Source of the DNA: Xanthomarina arctica
GTDB taxonomy: Bacteria > Bacteroidota > Bacteroidia > Flavobacteriales > Flavobacteriaceae
DNA length: 64,000 nt
Assembly: GCF_014638915.1 (NCBI RefSeq)
Contig: NZ_BMFQ01000003.1
Span: forward strand, 248,001 to 312,000
Reading direction: 5' to 3'
Shown here: positions 31,815 to 60,614 of the stretch, piece after piece
Layout of the letters: each line of letters begins with the position of its first letter
How positions within the stretch are numbered: the stretch's first letter is position 1
The notes under the pieces: generated by a model
What the model was told of the DNA's origin: nothing
The model's database searches: none
What the model saw: only the letters and a program-made list of their open reading frames with translations
Position numbers and translations under genes: made by a program

Positions 31815-32990
31815 ATGAAAACTCTCTTTCTATTTTTGGCAATAGCACTTATTGCTTTCCAATCTTACAGTCAAAAACCAAGAGCTAGAGATTTGGGCGT
31901 GCCCTTTGTTGGCACCCCAGGGAATTTTAATGCCATAACAGATGTTCAAGGCGTGGAAGTGGGTTATAGCACGATCATTTCAGGAAAAGGAGAAAACGTG
32001 GTTGGCAAAGGCCCTATACGAACTGGAGTAACCGCCATTTTCCCTAGAGGAAAAGCGAAAAAATTCAGTCCGGTGTATGCCAACTGGTACAGCCTGAATG
32101 GCAATGGCGAAATGACAGGAACCACATGGGTTACCGAATCAGGTTTTTTAGAAACGCCTATCATGATTACCAATACCAATAGTGTCGGGGTAGTTCGTGA
32201 CGCCGTATTAAAATGGTACGTGGATACCGATTGGTATAGTGGCGAAGATTGGTGGTATACCTATCCTGTAGTAGCCGAAACTTATGATGGTTTTTTAAAT
32301 GACATCTATGGGTTTCATGTAAAGGAAACACATGTTTTAGAAGCTATTAATAATTCAAGTGGCGGACAAATTGCTGAAGGAAATGTTGGTGGAGGTACCG
32401 GGATGATGTGTTTGGGTTATAAAGGAGGTACCGGCACCTCTTCCAGAGTTTTTAAAATAAAAGATTCAACTTATACCGTTGGAGCTATTGTACAATCAAA
32501 TTTTGGAGCCAAAAGAAACTTATCCATTGCAGGTGTACCTGTTGGAATAGCATTAAAAGACACTTTAAATTATGAATATCATGCCCCACCAAAATCTAGA
32601 AGACAAGAAGGAGACGGCTCCATTATTGTGATAATTGCAACAGATGTGCCATTGTTACCTCATCAATTAAAACGCATTGCTCAAAGAATTCCTTTGGGAG
32701 TTGGGATTGTTGGAGGTCGCGGGAGTAATGGCTCTGGAGATATCTTTTTAGCTTTCTCTACGGCAAATGAAAAGGCCTTTAATAGGGATGAAACAATTCG
32801 TGTCCAATCTTTACCTAACGATCAACTGATGCCTGTTTTTGAAGCCACTGTTCAAGCTGTAGAAGAAGCCATTATCAATGCCATGATTGCCGCAGAAACC
32901 ATGGAAGGCATTAATGGAAATAAGGCTTATGCCCTACCTCATGATTTGCTTATTGAAACTTTGAAAAAATATAATCGCATAGAGGATTAG
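31815..32990 (+). CDS. P1 family (S58, DmpA-like) peptidase, secreted
   Basis: 391 residues with a signal peptide (MKTLFLFLAIALIAFQSYSQ). The mature enzyme fits the DmpA/P1 N-terminal-nucleophile aminopeptidase family: RARDLGVPFVGTPGNFNAITDVQGVEVGYST, RTGVTAIFPRG, NGNGEMTGTTWVTESGFLETPIMITNT, AEGNVGGGTGM and GVGIVGGRGSNGSGDIFLAFST. In DmpA the chain self-cleaves before a Ser; the GSNGSGD segment (about residues 300-306) supplies the likely nucleophile. Such enzymes release N-terminal residues from peptides or amides. The gene ends directly at a heptamer tandem repeat. Confidence 0.88.
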   Translation: MKTLFLFLAIALIAFQSYSQKPRARDLGVPFVGTPGNFNAITDVQGVEVGYSTIISGKGENVVGKGPIRTGVTAIFPRGKAKKFSPVYANWYSLNGNGEMTGTTWVTESGFLETPIMITNTNSVGVVRDAVLKWYVDTDWYSGEDWWYTYPVVAETYDGFLNDIYGFHVKETHVLEAINNSSGGQIAEGNVGGGTGMMCLGYKGGTGTSSRVFKIKDSTYTVGAIVQSNFGAKRNLSIAGVPVGIALKDTLNYEYHAPPKSRRQEGDGSIIVIIATDVPLLPHQLKRIAQRIPLGVGIVGGRGSNGSGDIFLAFSTANEKAFNRDETIRVQSLPNDQLMPVFEATVQAVEEAIINAMIAAETMEGINGNKAYALPHDLLIETLKKYNRIED

Positions 32991-33081
32991 TTGGTTGTTG
33001 GTTGTTGGTTGTTGGTTGTTGGTTGTTGGTTGTTAGTTGTTAGTTGTTAGTTGTTAGTTGTTAGTTGTTAGTTGTTAGTTG
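32991..33081. repeat. Heptamer tandem repeat
   Basis: About 13 copies of a 7-bp unit (TTGGTTG, later TTAGTTG), starting at the stop codon of the P1 peptidase gene. The switch from GGTTGTT to AGTTGTT half-way shows two expansion steps. The unit is non-coding and no role is evident. Confidence 0.85.
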
Positions 33082-38038: not shown

Positions 38039-38704
38039 TTAAATTAGTCCTAAATCTTTAACTATGGCCACTAAATGAATGGCATTGTTGGCTTTAAATT
38101 GAATACGAAGTTTGTTGAGACGTTTTTCTATGGTACTTAAACTGTTTGGAGAAATATTTTTTTCTTTAAAATTAGCACTAATTTGATCTTGTGAAAAGCC
38201 GTTTGATAGCTCGGCCATTAATAAAATATCATAATCGTCTATTTCTAAATCGGATTTCTTATTTAAAGCTGGAGACACCGCTTCTGAAACATACAAAGTA
38301 TCTTTGTGTACGGCTTTAATGGCTTCAGATAATTCAATAAGACCTCTTCTACCCTTACATACATAGCCTTTTATGTTATAAAGATTGATAAGCCTTCTTA
38401 CTTTTTGAATTCGGTCTTCTATGGAATAAACTATCACTTTCAGGTCTGGAAATTCCTCATGCAAAGCTATAATTAAATCCTCGCCAGATTGGTATGTTTG
38501 ATCGCGATGGTCTTTCTTAAAAGACATGTCCGTTATCAATAAATCGTAAGGACTGCCATCTAAGGCTGCTTTTTTCACCTTTATATAAACATCATCACAA
38601 TACTGTACCGAAACCACATTCTTTATTTTTAGGGTATCTAAAATGGTTAACATTCCTAAATTGATACTCACCAAATCGTCTGAAACTATTACTTTTTTAA
38701 ACAT
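38039..38704 (-). CDS. Response regulator, LuxR-like output
   Basis: 221 residues. The receiver domain has the acidic pair at residues 9-10, the phospho-acceptor Asp at about 59 (LLITDMSF), a Ser in VIVYSIED and a Lys in GYVCKGRRG. The C-terminal segment (FSQDQISANFKEKNISPNSLSTIEKRLNKLRIQFKANNAIHLVAIVKDLGLI) looks like a LuxR-type helix-turn-helix of the flavobacterial variety. The gene starts 1 bp after the stop of the sensor-kinase gene, so the two form an operon and a cognate pair. Confidence 0.85.
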   Translation of the reverse strand: MFKKVIVSDDLVSINLGMLTILDTLKIKNVVSVQYCDDVYIKVKKAALDGSPYDLLITDMSFKKDHRDQTYQSGEDLIIALHEEFPDLKVIVYSIEDRIQKVRRLINLYNIKGYVCKGRRGLIELSEAIKAVHKDTLYVSEAVSPALNKKSDLEIDDYDILLMAELSNGFSQDQISANFKEKNISPNSLSTIEKRLNKLRIQFKANNAIHLVAIVKDLGLI

Positions 38705-38705
38705 A

Positions 38706-40367
38706 TTAAACCGTTATTACCGCATGAAAGCCTTGTTTTAATTCAGATTGAAAGGTAATAGAACCATTTATAGTATGCATACGGTTTTCCGCATTTTGGA
38801 GTCCATTTTGAATTTTTAAATTGCAACCAACCCCATTATCTTTATAGTCTATAAAAATACTATGGCTATTTTGTTTAAAATTTAAAACCACTAAACTGGC
38901 CTGGCTATGCTTTTTCATATTGGTAAGCAATTCCTGTAACACCCGATAGACAGCCACTTTTTTATGGGCTTTAAGAGTTGACCACTCTATTTTTGAAATG
39001 TCTTTGGTTAAAATATTAACCTCGTTATTTTTATAATAAATGATTAAATCTGATAGAATACTTTTAAAGTCTTCTGTCACATTTATTTCTTGATGTTCCC
39101 TAGAAATATCCCTAGTTTTATTATAAACTATTTCCAAATGATCTAATATGAGATGTTTGTCTCCATCATTATGCTGTAGTTTGTTCATAATATGATAGAC
39201 GTCGTTTGCTACTTCGTCATGCACTTTTTTTGAAATCCGAAGTTCCGTATTATAAATTTCTAATTGCTTTTGTTTTTTATGATGATGTTTTTGGAAAAAT
39301 AAAATAACTATTCCAATACCCAAAACTATCAATGCCAGAAATGCGTAGAGATATTTTAAATTCTTTTCTTTTTCAAGCTCTAAAAGTCTTTCGTTGGCAA
39401 GGGCTTCTTGCTTTGCCAAGGCATATTTTTTTGAGGCATATTTTCCTTCTACCAATAAATTAACCGTTTGGATGCTGTCCATCATCCGGTCATACAAAAT
39501 CACATCTGGATCGTCTTTTAAGCTCATTAACAAACTTAAAGCATGTGTCAAATGATTGGGGTTTTCAGATATTTTAGCTAATCTATAAGCTTCTTTGGCA
39601 TAATATGCAGCTTGTATAAGATCTCCTTCTTTTTTATAATATTCAGATAGGTCGTAATAGCTTCCAAGAATATCGGAGTTATTTCCTAAAGCCAAGCGAA
39701 TGTTCAAGGCTTCTTTAAAATCGATCATGGCTTCTTTATCCTGCAATTCCCCTTTTACAATCCCCAAATTATTTAGGGTGCGAGCCATATTAACCGAATC
39801 GTTTAGTGCTTTGCTCTCCTTATATATAGCTTCAAATTCCTGCTGGGCTAATAAAAATTTATGCCGTTTAAGTTGTGCATAGGCAATGTTATTTCGCAAT
39901 ACCAATTGCTGTTGCTGGGTTTCTGCTAGAGCAAGTGCTTTTTGGTAATATATAATGGCATTATCATAATCCTGCATTTCGTTATAAACACGCCCTAAGT
40001 GGTTGTAAATACCTACTCTAGATTCCTTGGAGGTTTGGTTTAAAGGCAATCTTTCTGCTAAAAATAGAGCTTCTATTGCCGTGGTTTCACTGTCGTATAA
40101 AATGCCTAATTTATTTTGAATAATGGCTATTTGTCTCAGACTATAAATAGTGTTTAAAGTATCTTTCTGCTTTATATTTTCATCTTTTTTATTCTGATAA
40201 TAAACAAAGGCCTTTACTAAATCGGCTTTAGAATCTGGTTTAATAATCTTATGATAATAGTATGCCGCGCTATCTACAGGTTTTTGCTGTTCAAAGTTGT
40301 TGAAAGCAAAACCATTAGTAACAAAGGTTATAGAAAGAAATAAAAAGAATTTTAATTGGAAAGTCAT
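38706..40367 (-). CDS. TPR-containing sensor histidine kinase
   Basis: 553 residues from the ATG at 40367, where a signal peptide begins (MTFQLKFFLFLSITFVTNGFAFN); an ATG 20 codons upstream is less likely. The periplasmic part (about 60-300) is built of TPR units such as YNHLGRVYNEMQDYDNAIIYYQKALA and ARTLNNLGIVKGELQDKEAMIDF. A transmembrane helix follows (YLYAFLALIVLGIGIVILFF), then the phospho-acceptor helix KKVHDEVANDVYHIMNKL and an HATPase domain with DNGVGC and a C-terminal G-x-HAVITV. The layout matches the TPR/HisKA_3-type kinases common in Flavobacteriia. Its signal is unknown. Confidence 0.88.
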   Translation of the reverse strand: MTFQLKFFLFLSITFVTNGFAFNNFEQQKPVDSAAYYYHKIIKPDSKADLVKAFVYYQNKKDENIKQKDTLNTIYSLRQIAIIQNKLGILYDSETTAIEALFLAERLPLNQTSKESRVGIYNHLGRVYNEMQDYDNAIIYYQKALALAETQQQQLVLRNNIAYAQLKRHKFLLAQQEFEAIYKESKALNDSVNMARTLNNLGIVKGELQDKEAMIDFKEALNIRLALGNNSDILGSYYDLSEYYKKEGDLIQAAYYAKEAYRLAKISENPNHLTHALSLLMSLKDDPDVILYDRMMDSIQTVNLLVEGKYASKKYALAKQEALANERLLELEKEKNLKYLYAFLALIVLGIGIVILFFQKHHHKKQKQLEIYNTELRISKKVHDEVANDVYHIMNKLQHNDGDKHLILDHLEIVYNKTRDISREHQEINVTEDFKSILSDLIIYYKNNEVNILTKDISKIEWSTLKAHKKVAVYRVLQELLTNMKKHSQASLVVLNFKQNSHSIFIDYKDNGVGCNLKIQNGLQNAENRMHTINGSITFQSELKQGFHAVITV

Positions 40368-40506
40368 TGCTGAAATTTGGTACAACCAAAATACGGATGT
40401 TTTTGGATTAAAAGTGTTATATCTCAAAAGTATCTCACGCTTCTGAACAACTTATGCCATCATTCAAAAAATGTCACCCTATAAATAAATGACCTCAACA
40501 AATTAC

Positions 40507-40649
40507 AAAAAAAAAGAGACCTGCATTTCTGCAAGCCTCCTACAATTAACCAAAAAACATTTGCTATTAATCAATCTGGATATTTTTCAAATCAACCAAT
40601 TCTAAAAACCTATCAAACCTACTTTAAACTTTTACTATTAGTAGTTTGA
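40507..40649 (-). ncRNA. Candidate small RNA, copy 5 (diverged, divergent from lplA)
   Basis: Transcribed leftward from about 40649. A -7 box TACATTTG (40662-40655) and the 17-bp palindrome at 40685-40701 lie upstream. The 5' end can fold as AAAC-TACT/AGTA-GTTT (40626-40647). The segment GATTAATAGCAAA is shared with the tandem copies. The 3' end is a terminator with a 10-bp stem (40516-40525 with 40530-40539), loop GAAA on the RNA strand, and nine or more U. There is no ORF longer than 10 codons. Copy 5 shares promoter, 5' hairpin shape and core motif with copies 1-4, although the body is mostly different, which suggests conserved RNA structure. Confidence 0.65.
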
Positions 40650-40654
40650 TAGTA

Positions 40655-40701
40655 CAAATGTAAATCGATTCCGTTTAATACATGATGACATTCCATGTCA
40701 T
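40655..40701 (-). promoter_or_regulatory. Promoter and palindromic operator of small-RNA copy 5, shared with lplA
   Basis: On the minus strand the -7 box TACATTTG is at 40662-40655. The perfect palindrome ATGACATTCCATGTCAT (7-bp arms, 3-bp centre, 40685-40701) is centred 34.5 bp upstream of the box, i.e. near -41 of the predicted transcript. The same palindrome lies about 48 bp upstream of the predicted lplA transcript start on the plus strand, so one regulator could control both directions. Confidence 0.55.
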
Positions 40702-40726
40702 GAGACATATTTACACACAATTTATT

Positions 40727-40734
40727 TATCTTTG
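40727..40734 (+). promoter_or_regulatory. -7 box of lplA
   Basis: TATCTTTG, an exact TAnnTTTG match followed by CA, 26 bp before the ATG at 40760. It places transcription start near 40741, downstream of an alternative ATG at 40685, and so supports the start at 40760. Confidence 0.6.
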
Positions 40735-40759
40735 CAAGGCTAAAAAACAACTCAGACTC

Positions 40760-41758
40760 ATGATTTTTATAGAAAATGAAGGTATTACCAACCCAAGGCT
40801 CAATCTAGCATTAGAGGAATATGCTCTTAGAAATTTTGATAGCTCCACAAATTATTTGCTGTTTTATATAAATGAACCTTCAATCATTATAGGAAGAAAT
40901 CAAAATACCATTCAGGAAATTAATCAGGATTATGTCGATGCGAATCACATTCATGTGGTTCGAAGAGTTTCCGGTGGTGGTGCTGTTTATCACGATTTAG
41001 GGAACCTTAATTTTAGCTTTATTACTAACCACGATGGAAAAAGCATCAGTAATTTCAAGAAATTTACAGATCCTGTAATTCGTGTTTTAAATAATATGGG
41101 CGTTACTGCCCAATTAAAAGGGAGAAATGATATTCAGGTAGACGATAAAAAAATATCGGGTACAGCTCAATTTTCAACTGGCAGACGCATGATTAGTCAT
41201 GGTACTTTACTTTTTGATACAGATATGAATGAAGTAGTTAAAGCACTTCAAGTAAAAGCAAGCAAAATTGAATCTAAAGGTCATAAATCTGTTCGAAGTC
41301 GGGTAGCTAATATTAGCGAATTTTTAAAAACACCATTAGCCATGGAAGATTTTAAAAAGCAATTACTTACTGGGCTTTATGAAGAAAGTGAGCCTTTTGA
41401 AACCTATAGACTTACGGAAGACGAATGGAAAGCCGTACACCAATTAAAAGCTGAGAAATACGATTTATGGGACTGGAATTTTGGACGTTCTCCAAAATTC
41501 AACATCCAACGTAACAAGCGTTTTGCTATTGGAGAAATAGACATGCGTATTTATGTTGAAAAGGGACATATTTCTGAACTAAAGATTTATGGAGATTTTT
41601 TTGGAGAAAAACCAGTATCAGACATTGAAAAGCTTCTGGAAGGCGTAGCTTACGATAAAGTAAAAATTTCCAAGTCTCTTGAAAACATTTCAATATCGGA
41701 CTATTTTGGTAATATCACAAAACCGGAGTTTCTAGAACTGGTGACTGAATTGGATTAA
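40760..41758 (+). CDS. lplA: Lipoate-protein ligase A
   Basis: 332 residues from the ATG at 40760 (MIFIENEGITNPRLNLALEEY), the usual start of this family. A reading from further upstream would add about 26 residues encoded partly by operator and promoter DNA. The enzyme activates lipoate with ATP and attaches it to lipoyl domains of pyruvate and oxoglutarate dehydrogenases. Motifs: NEPSIIIGRNQN, the lipoate-binding RRVSGGGAVYHDLGNLNFSFI, GRNDIQVDDKKISGTAQ with the catalytic Lys, and the C-terminal accessory domain (YDLWDWNFGRSPKFN). It is flanked by five small-RNA copies and shares an operator-like palindrome with copy 5, which may link lipoate salvage to the same regulator. Confidence 0.93.
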   Translation: MIFIENEGITNPRLNLALEEYALRNFDSSTNYLLFYINEPSIIIGRNQNTIQEINQDYVDANHIHVVRRVSGGGAVYHDLGNLNFSFITNHDGKSISNFKKFTDPVIRVLNNMGVTAQLKGRNDIQVDDKKISGTAQFSTGRRMISHGTLLFDTDMNEVVKALQVKASKIESKGHKSVRSRVANISEFLKTPLAMEDFKKQLLTGLYEESEPFETYRLTEDEWKAVHQLKAEKYDLWDWNFGRSPKFNIQRNKRFAIGEIDMRIYVEKGHISELKIYGDFFGEKPVSDIEKLLEGVAYDKVKISKSLENISISDYFGNITKPEFLELVTELD

Positions 41759-41776
41759 AAGGCATATTTTAAATCA

Positions 41777-41898
41777 TAAAAAAGCCTCACATGTCTGTGA
41801 GGCCCTTTTGCTATCAATCAAAACTAACACTTGTAATTAAATTCTTCTTTTTCACTTATCTTTAAACTGGAGACTAATCCGTTTTTTTCCTGTAATTA
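41777..41898 (-). ncRNA. Candidate small RNA, tandem copy 1
   Basis: About 120 nt, leftward. The -7 box TAAATTTG is at 41911-41904. A 5' stem AAAC-GGA/TCC-(A)-GTTT (41864-41884) is followed by an A-rich stretch, the core GATTGATAGCAAA, and a terminator GCCTCACA-GACA-TGTGAGGC (41784-41803 on the other strand) ending in six or seven U. A short reading frame (GTG, KKKNLITSVSFD, stop; 41855-41814) is kept in all four tandem copies but not in copy 5. The hairpin also lies 25 bp after the lplA stop and has a T run on that side too, so it can end lplA transcription. Confidence 0.7.
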
Positions 41899-41903
41899 TA
41901 GTA

Positions 41904-41948
41904 CAAATTTACAACCACACTTTCGTTTATAATATGACATGCCATGTC
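41904..41948 (-). promoter_or_regulatory. Promoter and palindromic operator, tandem copy 1
   Basis: -7 box TAAATTTG (41911-41904) and palindrome GACATGCCATGTC (41936-41948, 6-bp arms around one base) centred 34.5 bp upstream of the box. This is the class II activator position typical of Crp/Fnr-type proteins; no regulator is identified. Confidence 0.55.
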
Positions 41949-42013
41949 CAACTCTAAAATTCAAAATACAGAACAGCATGAGCATTGGGAAGTCAAATCG
42001 ACATGTTAGGCCA

Positions 42014-42134
42014 TAAAAAAACCTCACATGTCTGTGAGGCCCTTTTGCTATTAACCAAAACTAACACTTTTAATTAAATTCTTCTTTTTCACTTATCTTT
42101 AAACTGGAGACTAATCCGTTTTTTCATATAATTA
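42014..42134 (-). ncRNA. Candidate small RNA, tandem copy 2
   Basis: Same architecture as copy 1: -7 box at 42147-42140, identical 5' hairpin, core GGTTAATAGCAAA, terminator stem at 42022-42039 and a seven-base U run. It differs from copy 1 at scattered positions, including the last codon of the short frame (Gly for Asp). Confidence 0.7.
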
Positions 42135-42139
42135 TAGTA

Positions 42140-42184
42140 CAAATTTACAACCGCACTTTCGTTTATAATATGACATGCCATGTC
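42140..42184 (-). promoter_or_regulatory. Promoter and palindromic operator, tandem copy 2
   Basis: -7 box TAAATTTG (42147-42140) and palindrome GACATGCCATGTC (42172-42184), with the same spacing as copy 1. Confidence 0.55.
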
Positions 42185-42249
42185 CAACTCTAAAATTTTA
42201 AAAACCGACTAGCCTGAGCTTTGAGAAGTAAATTCGACATGTTAAGCCA

Positions 42250-42372
42250 TAAAAAAACCTCACATGTCTGTGAGGCCCTTTTGCTATTAATCAAAACTAA
42301 CACTTTTAATTAAATTCTTCTTTTTCACTTATCTTTAAACTGGAGACTAATCCGTTTTTTATCCTGTAATTA
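42250..42372 (-). ncRNA. Candidate small RNA, tandem copy 3
   Basis: Same architecture: -7 box at 42385-42378, identical 5' hairpin, core GATTAATAGCAAA, terminator stem at 42258-42275 and a seven-base U run. Confidence 0.7.
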
Positions 42373-42377
42373 TAGTA

Positions 42378-42422
42378 CAAATTTACAACCACACTTTCGT
42401 TTATAATATGACATGCCATGTC
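42378..42422 (-). promoter_or_regulatory. Promoter and palindromic operator, tandem copy 3
   Basis: -7 box TAAATTTG (42385-42378) and palindrome GACATGCCATGTC (42410-42422), same spacing as the other copies. Confidence 0.55.
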
Positions 42423-42487
42423 CAACTCTAAAATTCAAAAAACAGACCAGCATGAGCTTTGGGAAGTCAAATCGACATGTTAAGCCA

Positions 42488-42609
42488 TAAAAAAACCTCA
42501 CATGTCTGTGAGGCCCTTTTGCTATTAATCAAAACTAACACTTTTAATTAAATTCTTCTTTTTCACTTATCTTTAAACTGGAGACTAATCCGTTTTTATC
42601 CTGTAATTA
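42488..42609 (-). ncRNA. Candidate small RNA, tandem copy 4
   Basis: Same architecture: -7 box at 42622-42615, identical 5' hairpin, core GATTAATAGCAAA, terminator stem at 42496-42513 and a seven-base U run. It is the outermost copy. Confidence 0.7.
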
Positions 42610-42614
42610 TAGTA

Positions 42615-42659
42615 CAAATTTACAACCGCACTTTCGTTTATAATATGACATGCCGTGTC
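42615..42659 (-). promoter_or_regulatory. Promoter and slightly degenerate operator, tandem copy 4
   Basis: -7 box TAAATTTG (42622-42615). The palindrome reads GACATGCCGTGTC (42647-42659), one mismatch from perfect symmetry, so regulator binding may be weaker at this copy. Confidence 0.5.
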
Positions 42660-42764
42660 CAGCTTGAAAATAGTCAAACGGCACGGCATGTGATTCGTAA
42701 AAAACTGAAGGCTTTAGATATCCAGAAAGAGGCCTAACTAAAATAGCCTGCCTTTTCAAGTACT

Positions 42765-45125
42765 TTAATGAGGAATGTTAAAGCGCAAACCAACACTAAA
42801 AAAGAACTTCAATTTATTGATATCGTTTATATAAGCGACATCAAAATTAACGGGTCCTAGAATTGAGTTATAAGAAAAAGAGGTCCCTCCAGAAAATAAT
42901 AAGCTCGTTTCGGTTGTATTGATCCAATTCCCTTTTGGGGCATAGAAATCTTCTAAATATTCTCCAAAGTCATCGAAACCTACTGAAGCTAAATTAAGAT
43001 ATGGCGTTACATAAATATTTTTTAAAGGATTTATTTGTGCACCCACACTCGCCTTTATAAACTGCGTTACTATTAAATCGGTTGTGTTTAAACCTTGAAA
43101 TGCATACTCATTTTGAACGGGACTAGTCAAGCTACCTCCTAAGGTATATTTGGCGGGTTGCCCAAAATTTAAAAGCGATAAATCGTTAGAATCTACATCG
43201 TCCAAAAGCATGATTCCAGAACTAACACCTCCTATAAGCGTTGTTTTAGTAGTAATTGGCACACGTTTTTCAAACTGAAAGTTCAGTTTGGTAAAACCAC
43301 TGAGCGATCCTGTAATATTATTTTCAGGGTTATCATTATAAGTTGCTTCAATATTGCTACCTAAAGATCTAGAGAGCCTTACGTTTACATAACTTCCCGA
43401 GGTTGCAAAAAACACTTTATTCATGGAATTATGATTAAAATTTAAACCTACTTCAAAATTATTGAATTTGTATTTTCTTAAATCATATACATTTTCCGTA
43501 TAATCTGGATTTGATTTTGGTTTTAATCCCAAATATTCATAGTTTATATAGAAACCTACGTAATTATTCAAAGAATTTAAATTTTTATTTAATTGACCGG
43601 AAACCAGATTGTAAGTATTTTTTAAATCGTCTCCAATACTCCCATACAAATAATAATTTTGAATTGTTTTTTGTCCAAAAGATTCTGCTCGCCACCACCA
43701 ATTTTTTGTTTCCCCAACATTTTGTTGGTACTGCACTCTGTATTTAGGTGCTTCGGCAATATCTAAACCAACTAATAACCTAGAAGAATACCCAAGAATA
43801 TTTCTACCAGTATAATTAACCACCACGCCCACTCCCTCGGTAGTATCGTAGTGAAGAGCACCATTTAACTGATTACGTGCTTTTTCTAAACCATATAAGT
43901 TTAGAATATTGTGACCATCTTCTTCTTTCACACTATAGGTAATCTGATAAAATAATTCAGTTCCCATAGCACGTTCAATGGCATTTGTTAATTCTGTAAT
44001 ATTATAAGTGCTATTGGTCGAGATAGCCATTCTAGCTTGCACAAGACTCAGGTTTTCATTGCTTATCCCGTGATATTGAATTTCTGAAAATAAAATAGCA
44101 TTTTCCATTACTGGTAAGGCATGATCTCGTTGCTTAAATTTTTTCAAGGAATCAGCAAGAACAGCCAACTGATCAATATTGCTTTTTGTTGCAATTTCAC
44201 CTTCCTTCAAAATACCCAGAGCACTTGCAAAATCCTCAGTGGAATAGGTTAAATTCCCTACATGATCTATTAAAATAGTACAAAGAGCTCTATTTTCTGG
44301 ATTCTTAATATTACTGGTTAACATGGACGTTTGAAACAAAATAGAGGGAATATTATTCAATTTCTCTATAGGCTGTAAACCGCCACCAACATCGCTTCCA
44401 ATAATAATATCTGCTCCCATGGCCACAGCTACATCCACCGGAAAATTATCCATAACCCCACCGTCAACTAATAAGGTCTCATTGTATGGAACAGGCTGAA
44501 ACACACTAGGTATAGACATGCTCGCTCTTAAAGCGACTGCCAACGATCCTTGATCCAAAACCACAACCTCTCCTTTAACTAGATCTGTTGCTACCGCACG
44601 AAATGGAATAGATAAATCATCAAAATTGGAAACATTATAAACAGGATATACAGTGGTCGATAAAAACTCTCTTAAATTTTGGTCTTTTAATATGGAAGCT
44701 TTCATTTTAGGTTTTCCTTTAATGACGTCCACGTTCAATAAATACCTACCAAATTCACTCTTTTCTTCAACACCCACATCTCTAAAAGAAACACTTCCTC
44801 CTAAAAGTTCCGTCCATTTAGCGCTTTTGGTAATTTTAGCAATGCTATCGCCAGAATATCCCATGGCATAAAGGCCTCCAACAATACTTCCCATACTCGT
44901 ACCAATAATAAGGTCTGGAACAATACCCAAACTATCTAAAGCTTGAATTACAGGAATATGGGCGATACCTTTAGCGCCACCTCCACTTAAAACCAAAGCA
45001 ACCTTTGGTTTCTTTTCTTGTGAAAACAACTGTGTATTCATTCCAAAAAGGAATAAACAGAACAGGAGACATAACATCTGTTTTTGTTTAAAAACATGAC
45101 ATATTAATAACTTTTTAACTTGCAT
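42765..45125 (-). CDS. Patatin-like phospholipase with C-terminal outer-membrane beta-barrel
   Basis: 786 residues. After a signal region (start at residue 1, or at Met17, MLCLLFCLFLFGMNTQLFSQ) comes a patatin domain. It has the oxyanion motif GGGAKG (48-53), the nucleophile elbow GTSMG (Ser77) and the Asp of DGG (D221, LLVDGGVMDNFPVDVA). A POTRA-like linker and a Bam/Tam-type barrel follow from about residue 400 to the end (NDINKLKFFFSVGLRFNIPH, ending in an alternating strand). This is the type Vd (PlpD-like) layout, in which a lipase is carried to the cell surface by its own barrel. Substrate unknown; phospholipids are likely. Confidence 0.9.
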   Translation of the reverse strand: MQVKKLLICHVFKQKQMLCLLFCLFLFGMNTQLFSQEKKPKVALVLSGGGAKGIAHIPVIQALDSLGIVPDLIIGTSMGSIVGGLYAMGYSGDSIAKITKSAKWTELLGGSVSFRDVGVEEKSEFGRYLLNVDVIKGKPKMKASILKDQNLREFLSTTVYPVYNVSNFDDLSIPFRAVATDLVKGEVVVLDQGSLAVALRASMSIPSVFQPVPYNETLLVDGGVMDNFPVDVAVAMGADIIIGSDVGGGLQPIEKLNNIPSILFQTSMLTSNIKNPENRALCTILIDHVGNLTYSTEDFASALGILKEGEIATKSNIDQLAVLADSLKKFKQRDHALPVMENAILFSEIQYHGISNENLSLVQARMAISTNSTYNITELTNAIERAMGTELFYQITYSVKEEDGHNILNLYGLEKARNQLNGALHYDTTEGVGVVVNYTGRNILGYSSRLLVGLDIAEAPKYRVQYQQNVGETKNWWWRAESFGQKTIQNYYLYGSIGDDLKNTYNLVSGQLNKNLNSLNNYVGFYINYEYLGLKPKSNPDYTENVYDLRKYKFNNFEVGLNFNHNSMNKVFFATSGSYVNVRLSRSLGSNIEATYNDNPENNITGSLSGFTKLNFQFEKRVPITTKTTLIGGVSSGIMLLDDVDSNDLSLLNFGQPAKYTLGGSLTSPVQNEYAFQGLNTTDLIVTQFIKASVGAQINPLKNIYVTPYLNLASVGFDDFGEYLEDFYAPKGNWINTTETSLLFSGGTSFSYNSILGPVNFDVAYINDINKLKFFFSVGLRFNIPH

Positions 45126-47418: not shown

Positions 47419-47510
47419 CCTTACCTCATACCTACTACCTCACACCTACTACCTCACACCTACTACCGCACACCTACTACCTCATACCTACTACCTACCG
47501 TCTACCGACT
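47419..47510. repeat. Imperfect tandem repeat of about 14 bp
   Basis: Five or six imperfect copies of a unit like CTACTACCTCACAC, ending exactly at the stop of recQ. A small inverted repeat CCTGTC/GACAGG precedes it (about 47374-47390). It is non-coding; short frames that read through it only echo the repeat. Confidence 0.75.
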
Positions 47511-60081: not shown

Positions 60082-60614
60082 TTACTTGAATTATTAGGTA
60101 AAGATAACAAGTTGTTAAAATTATGCAAGTTTATTTGGTGTATGGTGTTCGTTGTTCGGTGTATGTTGCTTGGTGTATGGTGTATGGTTTGTGGTGTATG
60201 GTGTATGGTTGTTTTTATTTTATTTATTTATAAGACATGATGAAGTTTTCAATTTAATTAACAGATATTAATATAAAATAACTTCACGGCTCCCCTCTTC
60301 AGTTGAAGAGGGGAATGAATTTACCGAAGTGCAACGGAGGTGAAGAAAGGGGAGTTTGCAAATAGAACAAATTATATTTCATCTAATACAATCCCCTGCC
60401 TGCCTCCCATTCTGTCCGGCATTCGGGCAGGCTCCGTCTAGCCCTCCTACCTAGAGAAATTGCCACCGCGCCAGCTCGCCCGCCTGCCGTTTATTTTATT
60501 CGAAATTCGGGCAAGCCCCTTCGCTAAAATAGTCCACAGCACTATTTCTTTACGCTTGGTCGTCTTTAACTAAAGGGCGGAGCCTAGGCTTGGTCCTTTT
60601 TAATTTTATTTATT

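Follow-up and report, generated by a model that had tools for sequence, protein, structure and literature searches.

What is encoded by the tandem array that lies between lplA and a patatin gene in Xanthomarina arctica, a member of the Flavobacteriaceae, and does anything control its repeated units together? We addressed this question in the 64,000-nucleotide stretch of DNA that holds the array, hereafter the window, and by comparing the window's genome (G000) with seven other genomes of the genus (G001-G007) and with relatives further afield.

Four tandem units and a diverged fifth

Tandem Repeats Finder places the array at 41775-42661, with a period of 236, 3.7 copies and 94% matches, and an ungapped repeat finder gives spacings of 236-238 between four head-to-tail units on the minus strand (41778-42659), flanked by lplA on one side and the patatin gene on the other (Table 1). 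Read along the minus strand, each unit consists of a 13-bp palindrome, a gap of exactly 24 nt, the -7 box TAAATTTG, a body of 125-127 nt and a terminator. The palindrome, which we call the operator, reads GACATGGCATGTC except in unit 1, where it is GACACGGCATGTC, and its general form is GACAYGGCATGTC. The complete palindrome-24-box pattern is found five times in the window, in the four units and in a fifth, diverged copy, against 0.0002 occurrences expected from base composition; the units and their spacing are thereby shown computationally. A sequence-only reading of the locus had described four units of about 237 bp repeating after lplA, each with a minus-strand palindrome, an exact -7 box, a body of about 120 nt and a terminator, and without a substantial open reading frame. 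All of this held, the longest frame opening with ATG, GTG or TTG within any of the five bodies being 22 codons. The terminator hairpin, given there as 18-20 bp, is corrected to a predicted stem of about 14 bp, flanking A-U pairs included, and the 5' hairpin held only in part, as it is weak. Array units fold mildly better than shuffles (z -1.4 to -2.4). That reading also knew of no described flavobacterial RNA of this kind, and Rfam 15 gave no match at gathering score in the window or in the nine loci searched.

Table 1. Features of the window and of related loci (window positions unless a locus is named)
Feature	Location	Strand	Details
Response regulator (RR)	38039..38704	-	downstream of fifth unit; disfavoured as the operator's regulator
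TPR histidine kinase	38706..40427	-	adjoins response regulator
Fifth, diverged sibling	40507..40699	-	operator 40687-40699; -7 box 40655-40662; RNA body 40507-40654; seed 40563-40574
lplA, lipoate-protein ligase	40682..41758	+	between fifth unit and array
Array unit 4	41778..41948	-	operator 41936-41948; -7 box 41904-41911; RNA body 41778-41903; seed variant TTGATTGATAGC at 41810-41821
Array unit 3	42015..42184	-	operator 42172-42184; -7 box 42140-42147; RNA body 42015-42139; seed variant TTGGTTAATAGC at 42047-42058
Array unit 2	42251..42422	-	operator 42410-42422; -7 box 42378-42385; body 42251-42377; seed 42283-42294
Array unit 1	42489..42659	-	operator 42647-42659; 24-nt spacer; -7 box 42615-42622; RNA body 42489-42614; 12-nt seed TTGATTAATAGC at 42521-42532; terminator at the unit's low end
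Patatin-like protein, Omp85-type C-terminus	42765..45125	-	upstream of array in transcription order
Leader + short ORF of kinase/RR operon	L039:3348-3827, L051:3364-3843	-	
Leader + short ORF of kinase/RR operon	L040:7114-7593, L044:6915-7394, L045:7179-7658, L046:7242-7721, L049:7389-7868	+	
Unrelated TTGATTAATAGC RNA by ECF sigma factor-like gene	L130, L132, L133 (around 1500)		

The units could instead be a recently duplicated repeat, or genes for very short peptides, rather than RNA genes. In favour of this reading, the tandem copies are nearly identical and strong matches to the array are confined to the window's own genome among the eight genus genomes, and three of the four array units contain a closed 13-codon GTG frame (VKKKNLIKSVSF-). 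Against it, promoters and bodies are 97% identical while the spacers between them are 88% identical (mean pairwise identity: four promoters 97.4%, RNA bodies 96.7%, three inter-unit spacers 87.9%); the 13-codon frame is not among the three longest in unit 4 or in the fifth unit, and it shifts between Hanstruepera flava and H. marina, whose copies differ by 2 nt in length, as read from the sequence; and other noncoding units and arrays are likewise preceded by the operator and box. We consider this alternative very unlikely, and the peptide reading was dropped on the frame analysis of the five bodies. It is very likely that the array and the fifth copy are small RNA genes sharing one operator. 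This supports, as the best available reading, the earlier suggestion of sibling-RNA regulation in the sense of shared control; transcription itself is inferred, as there are no transcript data.

Elsewhere in the window, short tandem repeats with a period of 7 bp or multiples of it occur at 32990-33081 (13 copies of GTTAGTT), 47422-47498 and 60136-60214.

The fifth unit adjoins lplA in the window, as do its homologues in G004 and G005, and it folds clearly better than shuffles (z -3.9). The true start of lplA is likely an internal ATG near 40760. Searching the genus with the bare operator-promoter pattern at up to two mismatches proved noisy, giving 41 hits against 33 for a reversed control, so that each hit was assessed from the RNA after it. 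Of the seven other genus genomes, six carry one fifth-type unit each, complete with operator, 24 nt, -7 box, RNA and terminator; in G003 the fifth-type RNA is present (58.7 bits with the covariance model described below) and the operator before it is absent. In an alignment of seven fifth-type RNAs, a hairpin with the 12-nt loop TTGATTAATAGC (RNA UUGAUUAAUAGC) is invariant in all seven, and the terminator is likewise conserved; the conservation of both is shown. Five of 19 pairs differ on both sides in a compensatory manner, all of them in the terminator, a number reached by 3 of 500 shuffles, and no two-sided changes were seen in the loop-presenting stem in this seven-RNA alignment.

A covariance model built from these seven RNAs and searched over 397 genomes of the family separated only G002, G000, G437 and G003 (at least 58.7 bits) from noise, with matches at E <= 0.1 in 329 of the 397. 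Matches of about 35-48 bits were not trusted; array unit 4 itself scores 38.1, and a second copy in G437 (H. flava) is real yet reaches only 41.8 bits, within the noise range.

Recurrence of the operator and a candidate regulator

Outside the window, about 290 kb from the array, lies a helix-turn-helix (HTH) gene of 294 aa that we call REG (G000:C3:583671-584552). A second conserved operator sits between REG and a divergent operon of small ORFs, and REG is divergent beside an operator in all seven REG-bearing genomes of the genus. In the window's genome, seven operator hits were judged to include six convincing sites, five of which precede the sibling RNAs.

An exact scan for the palindrome-24-box pattern across 84,980 species genomes yielded 43 loci, and the REG gene lies within the fetched stretch at 21 of them. 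Six further loci (L295, L299, L308, L313, L323 and L331) are Xanthomarina-type or Hanstruepera RNA loci, and the remaining 16 include extra loci of species already listed and probable chance hits in unrelated phyla. The spacing, scanned from 20 to 28 in 28 chosen sources (the window, 23 of the 43 scan loci, and L107, L117, L289 and L294), is 24 at all 35 sites classed as sRNA promoters. Excluded from this survey were 20 of the 43 loci, including five that hold REG (L298, L306, L319, L327 and L336), at which operators precede protein genes or the sites were unclassed. The result is inflated by the 24-nt search pattern, with which most of the sites were found, but some sites with a spacing of 24 could not have matched that pattern, among them the second copies in H. 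flava and H. marina. The same operator also faces the promoter of REG itself, where the spacing is 20 in eight of ten cases and 21 and 26 in the other two.

The sequence-only reading had held that a lack of matching elements in related genomes would refute it; such elements were searched for and found, and on this count it stands. H. flava and H. marina each carry two operator-driven RNAs directly after a patatin gene, which is also where the array lies in the window, and alignment shows that the window's array is orthologous to the patatin-side copy. The array therefore appears to have grown at an older sRNA locus. On this alignment we dropped homology between the fifth unit and the array as judged by the seed alone, and the array's 12-mer is accordingly positioned differently within the fold. 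Close to REG, further noncoding units with an operator and a terminator are present in Winogradskyella aurantiaca (a pair separated by 452 bp), W. pelagia, W. aurantia, Algibacter onchidii, A. mikhailovii and Tamlana agarivorans, and also in several metagenome bins. Aestuariibaculum sediminum has four operator-driven noncoding units in tandem, at spacings of 180, 180 and 188; every one of them has a long hairpin, yet its U run is weak, and three of the four fail the terminator criterion. Multi-copy or tandem units thus recur in Hanstruepera, Winogradskyella and Aestuariibaculum.

REG and the operator also covary across genomes. REG was detected in 12 of 63 genomes searched, 55 of which were shared with the operator scan and form the basis of the test. 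At up to two mismatches, 10 of the 11 REG-bearing genomes have the operator, as do 5 of the 44 that lack REG (p = 1e-6); if one mismatch at most is allowed, the counts are 8 of 11 and 0 of 44. Since the reversed-control pattern matches 13 of the same 55 genomes, the five hits without REG are at chance level. The genome lists for REG, RR and operator behind these 2x2 tests were compiled by hand, and, with 7 of the 11 REG genomes belonging to one genus, the test is not phylogenetically independent and the p value overstates independence. G003, the genus member whose RNA has no operator, lacks REG. G044 encodes a REG homologue with one stop and had no operator hit in the 55-genome scan; a relaxed scan found one variant operator near its REG, ahead of a protein gene. 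Co-occurrence and linkage are shown, and from them we judge it likely that REG binds the operator GACATNNNATGTC of these units, for which there are no binding data.

The N-terminus of REG is a helix-turn-helix with weak Pfam matches only. We aligned 23 REG proteins from operator-promoter loci and from them obtained a confident AlphaFold2 model of the L336 protein (pLDDT 88.9, pTM 0.86). Residues ~98-290 match GNAT-fold structures (Foldseek best E 8.8e-5), and the best structural match of the model is 6z00_A (Z 13.5, rmsd 3.2 over 150 residues). The C-terminal domain is thus predicted by the model to adopt a GNAT fold; for acyl-CoA binding, acetyltransferase activity or a ligand there are no data.

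The small-ORF operon linked to REG (L225:4-956, minus strand) encodes proteins of about 80, 78 and 157 aa and is conserved in the REG-bearing genus genomes examined; its small proteins gave no Pfam match above cut-off and no NCBIfam match. Two tandem REG paralogues occur at L296:4606-6362, L309:6108-7857 and L319:4831-6575, and L303 holds a partial second REG.

A different regulator is suggested by the genes beside the fifth unit, where the TPR kinase and response regulator might control the RNAs as LuxO controls Qrr in vibrios. This was our initial idea, from the position of the fifth unit, which lies upstream of the kinase gene both in the window and in G002 (Xanthomarina spongicola). The RR has no Pfam match at E <= 0.001, with weak response-regulator matches at E <= 1 and in NCBIfam. 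The operator does not track the RR, however, being found in 12 of 34 genomes with it (defined as at least 140 bits) and 3 of 21 without (p = 0.12). In H. flava, which has operators and two RNAs, the only counterpart of the RR is a distant paralogue (47.8 bits); G001 has a decayed RR and G007 one that is apparently deleted and fused, yet operators persist in both; and G003 retains the RR, yet its RNA has no operator. The idea was dropped on the H. flava genome and the RR-operator co-occurrence, and we regard two-component control as very unlikely.

The kinase/RR operon has features of its own. Its apparent deletion and fusion in G007 and its decay in G001 are seen at L050:8952-9674 and L052:9751-10153, and the RR is full-length in G002, G003, G004 and G005. 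The orthologous operon of other genera follows a similar ~200-nt leader and a short lipoprotein-like ORF of roughly 45-60 codons, with CCGxxG and proline runs near its end. These may possibly represent a signal peptide and a structured leader, which we aligned and did not fold.

The shared 12-mer and its candidate mRNA targets

The complement of the 12-nt seed, GCTATTAATCAA, has 104 sites across the eight genomes of the genus, a count that takes in the copies within the RNA genes themselves; the reversed pattern has six. We examined 90 of the 104, of which 79 are intergenic and 11 coding. When the 79 are read in the GCTATTAATCAA sense, an ATG that opens a frame of 50 codons or more follows within 80 nt in 16 cases, against three in the other sense, and a -7-like box directly precedes the site in 13, again against three. 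Read in the TTGATTAATAGC sense, intergenic sites are followed by a terminator 26 times, against nine in the other sense. In several cases the complement site starts 22-28 nt before the start codon. The enrichment of the complement is shown; pairing is inferred.

Because BLAST grouping merged 38 AT-rich sites into one group, orthologous sets were read by eye, and orthologous 5'-end sites recur in up to eight of eight genus genomes (L186 and its orthologues). At L186:1440-1620, a conserved promoter region combines a TACGTA...TACGTA palindrome with a GCTATTAATCAA leader; it is present in all eight (orthologues L189, L190, L203, L209, L242, L253 and L274); in the window's genome a 33-aa ORF follows the site. 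Near other complement sites of this genome lie a gene for a secreted-looking protein (L224) and an exported-looking 45-aa ORF (L222). The labels 'secreted' and 'lipoprotein-like' and the gene names ECF sigma factor, M3 peptidase and purM are assignments made by eye.

The 12-mer is also found beyond the operator-driven units. TTGATTAATAGC precedes a terminator in a small RNA of unrelated stem, divergent from an ECF sigma factor-like gene, in three genera, and a TTGATTAATAGC RNA lies upstream of an M3 peptidase-like gene in seven of the eight genus genomes. G371 and G383 have the RNA linked to the ECF sigma factor-like gene and lack REG. RNAs with the seed are thus present where REG is not, and the seed is not peculiar to the REG circuit. 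Conversely, some REG-linked RNAs carry TTAATAGC-type seeds and others, in Aestuariibaculum, W. aurantiaca and several metagenome-assembled genomes, carry none. In a sample of 247 genomes of the phylum, only four, all members of the family, have seven or more copies of the 12-mer (G000 16, G210 13, G207 9 and G178 7), with at most five elsewhere; sampled members of genus g155 of the same family, which we take, as a guess, to be Flavobacterium, have 0-5 copies per genome. A text search for the 12-mers returned only unrelated papers in the literature searched.

Within the array, the seed sits in the 3' arm of a predicted hairpin, not in the loop, in three of the four units. The seeds of units 3 and 4 have one change each, both retaining a G-U pair as read from the sequence, and in the Hanstruepera orthologue of the array the loop bears only the seed variant TTGATTGATAG. 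With the seed in a predicted stem arm in three of four units, its accessibility for pairing in the array RNAs is no more than possible.

These observations bear on a further alternative, namely that the RNAs are real and controlled by REG but act as protein-binding decoys or pair elsewhere, the 12-mer being a protein site or having another role. Several REG-linked RNAs without the seed, the partly paired seed of the array in its predicted fold, and the binding of paralogous sRNAs in Bacteroides by an RNA-binding protein (PMC11697453) speak for it. Against it, the complement is strongly enriched in the genus (104 vs 6) and oriented toward 5' ends, and it recurs at orthologous leader regions, one of them in eight of eight genomes (read by eye). 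We think this alternative unlikely, and lean, without pairing data, toward the seed pairing with mRNA 5' ends.

A proposed circuit and known sibling RNAs

We propose that the five units encode sibling regulatory RNAs, each about 120-150 nt long, and that REG would directly activate all five promoters through the shared operator. Activation over repression is inferred. Direct activation appears most likely because the operator lies a fixed 24 nt from the -7 box, with its centre near -43, a position that follows if the box spans -12 to -5, the placement reported for Flavobacterium (PMC9723704). The RNA sequence UUGAUUAAUAGC would pair with GCUAUUAAUCAA sites at mRNA 5' ends, several of which encode secreted-looking proteins, and pairing would most likely lower translation of the targets by hindering initiation, a mode favoured because the site starts shortly before the start codon in the cases given above. 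Repression of targets is inferred, and their stabilisation is a possible alternative by analogy with Rfp18 (below). Multiple copies would yield a fast, high-dose output; the benefit of dosage, also raised by the sequence-only reading, is inferred only. Taken as a whole, the mechanism of REG activating five siblings whose seed pairs with mRNA 5' ends and hinders initiation strikes us as more probable than its negation, by a modest margin.

The logic of such a circuit is known from other sibling sRNAs, although regulator and seed differ, and we do not claim membership in any known family. The sibling sRNAs LhrC1-5 of Listeria monocytogenes, 105-121 nt long, come from one locus with four genes and a second with one; their induction is LisRK-dependent, and their unpaired CU-rich motifs pair with Shine-Dalgarno regions (PMC5880928, PMC8079631). 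The likeness is one of architecture only, with four plus one siblings under one proposed regulator, each with its own promoter and terminator, and bodies here of 125-148 nt. LhrC, however, is under LisRK control and uses CU-rich motifs, whereas we propose a regulator of the HTH-GNAT type and a 12-nt seed of another sequence; in the fifth-type RNA the stretch that is both conserved and unpaired is UUGAUUAAUAGC. The LisR or two-component control that characterises LhrC is not borne out here, as the operator co-occurs with REG and not with the neighbouring RR, again without binding data; any sequence relation to LhrC was tested through Rfam alone.

FopS of Bacteroides thetaiotaomicron comprises 14 paralogous sRNAs with a common seed in their single-stranded 5' part that repress translation of SusC-like transporters; they are associated with the RNA-binding protein RbpB, and an Rfam model has been deposited (PMC11697453). 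The window RNAs resemble them as paralogous Bacteroidota sRNAs with a common seed. The absence of a FopS match in the window rests on an Rfam 15 copy in which the presence of that model is unconfirmed. Rfp18, a conserved sRNA of Flavobacterium psychrophilum and so also from the Flavobacteriaceae, has one stem-loop predicted to pair with metalloprotease and adhesin mRNAs, and its loss lowers two metalloprotease mRNAs (PMC9723704); it is described as one sRNA, and a seed shared with the window RNAs is not excluded. Vibrios have several sibling Qrr sRNAs under one regulator, with sigma-54/LuxO control and Hfq dependence. Our units share with Qrr the several siblings under one regulator and differ in that the adjacent two-component system is disfavoured (the operator does not follow the RR, and H. 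flava is a counter-example).

In the literature searched we found no tandem or paralogous sRNAs in Flavobacteriaceae, no sRNAs of Winogradskyella, Algibacter or Formosa by title, and no description of a REG-sRNA system. To our knowledge, few Bacteroidota other than Bacteroides have had their sRNA regulation charted, and the known regulators of sibling sRNAs come mainly from proteobacteria and Firmicutes; the FopS study makes the same statement about paralogous sRNAs (PMC11697453).

A bolder reading would be that a GNAT-fold HTH regulator, present in several Flavobacteriaceae genera, has sibling noncoding RNAs as its main output and perhaps senses an acyl-CoA or aminoacyl metabolite, the sensed signal being inferred, and that these RNAs belong to a family-specific network in which several unrelated sRNAs share a 12-nt seed that addresses extreme mRNA 5' ends, many of them of mRNAs for surface or secreted proteins. 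As a joint claim, we think it less likely than not.

The set recurs in relatives of several genera and so looks like an unrecognised RNA control circuit of the Flavobacteriaceae. If the proposal is correct, the HTH-GNAT family would gain its first proposed role, and a regulator, its operator, the RNAs, their seed and candidate targets would be named together in a form that can be tested in cultured marine species.
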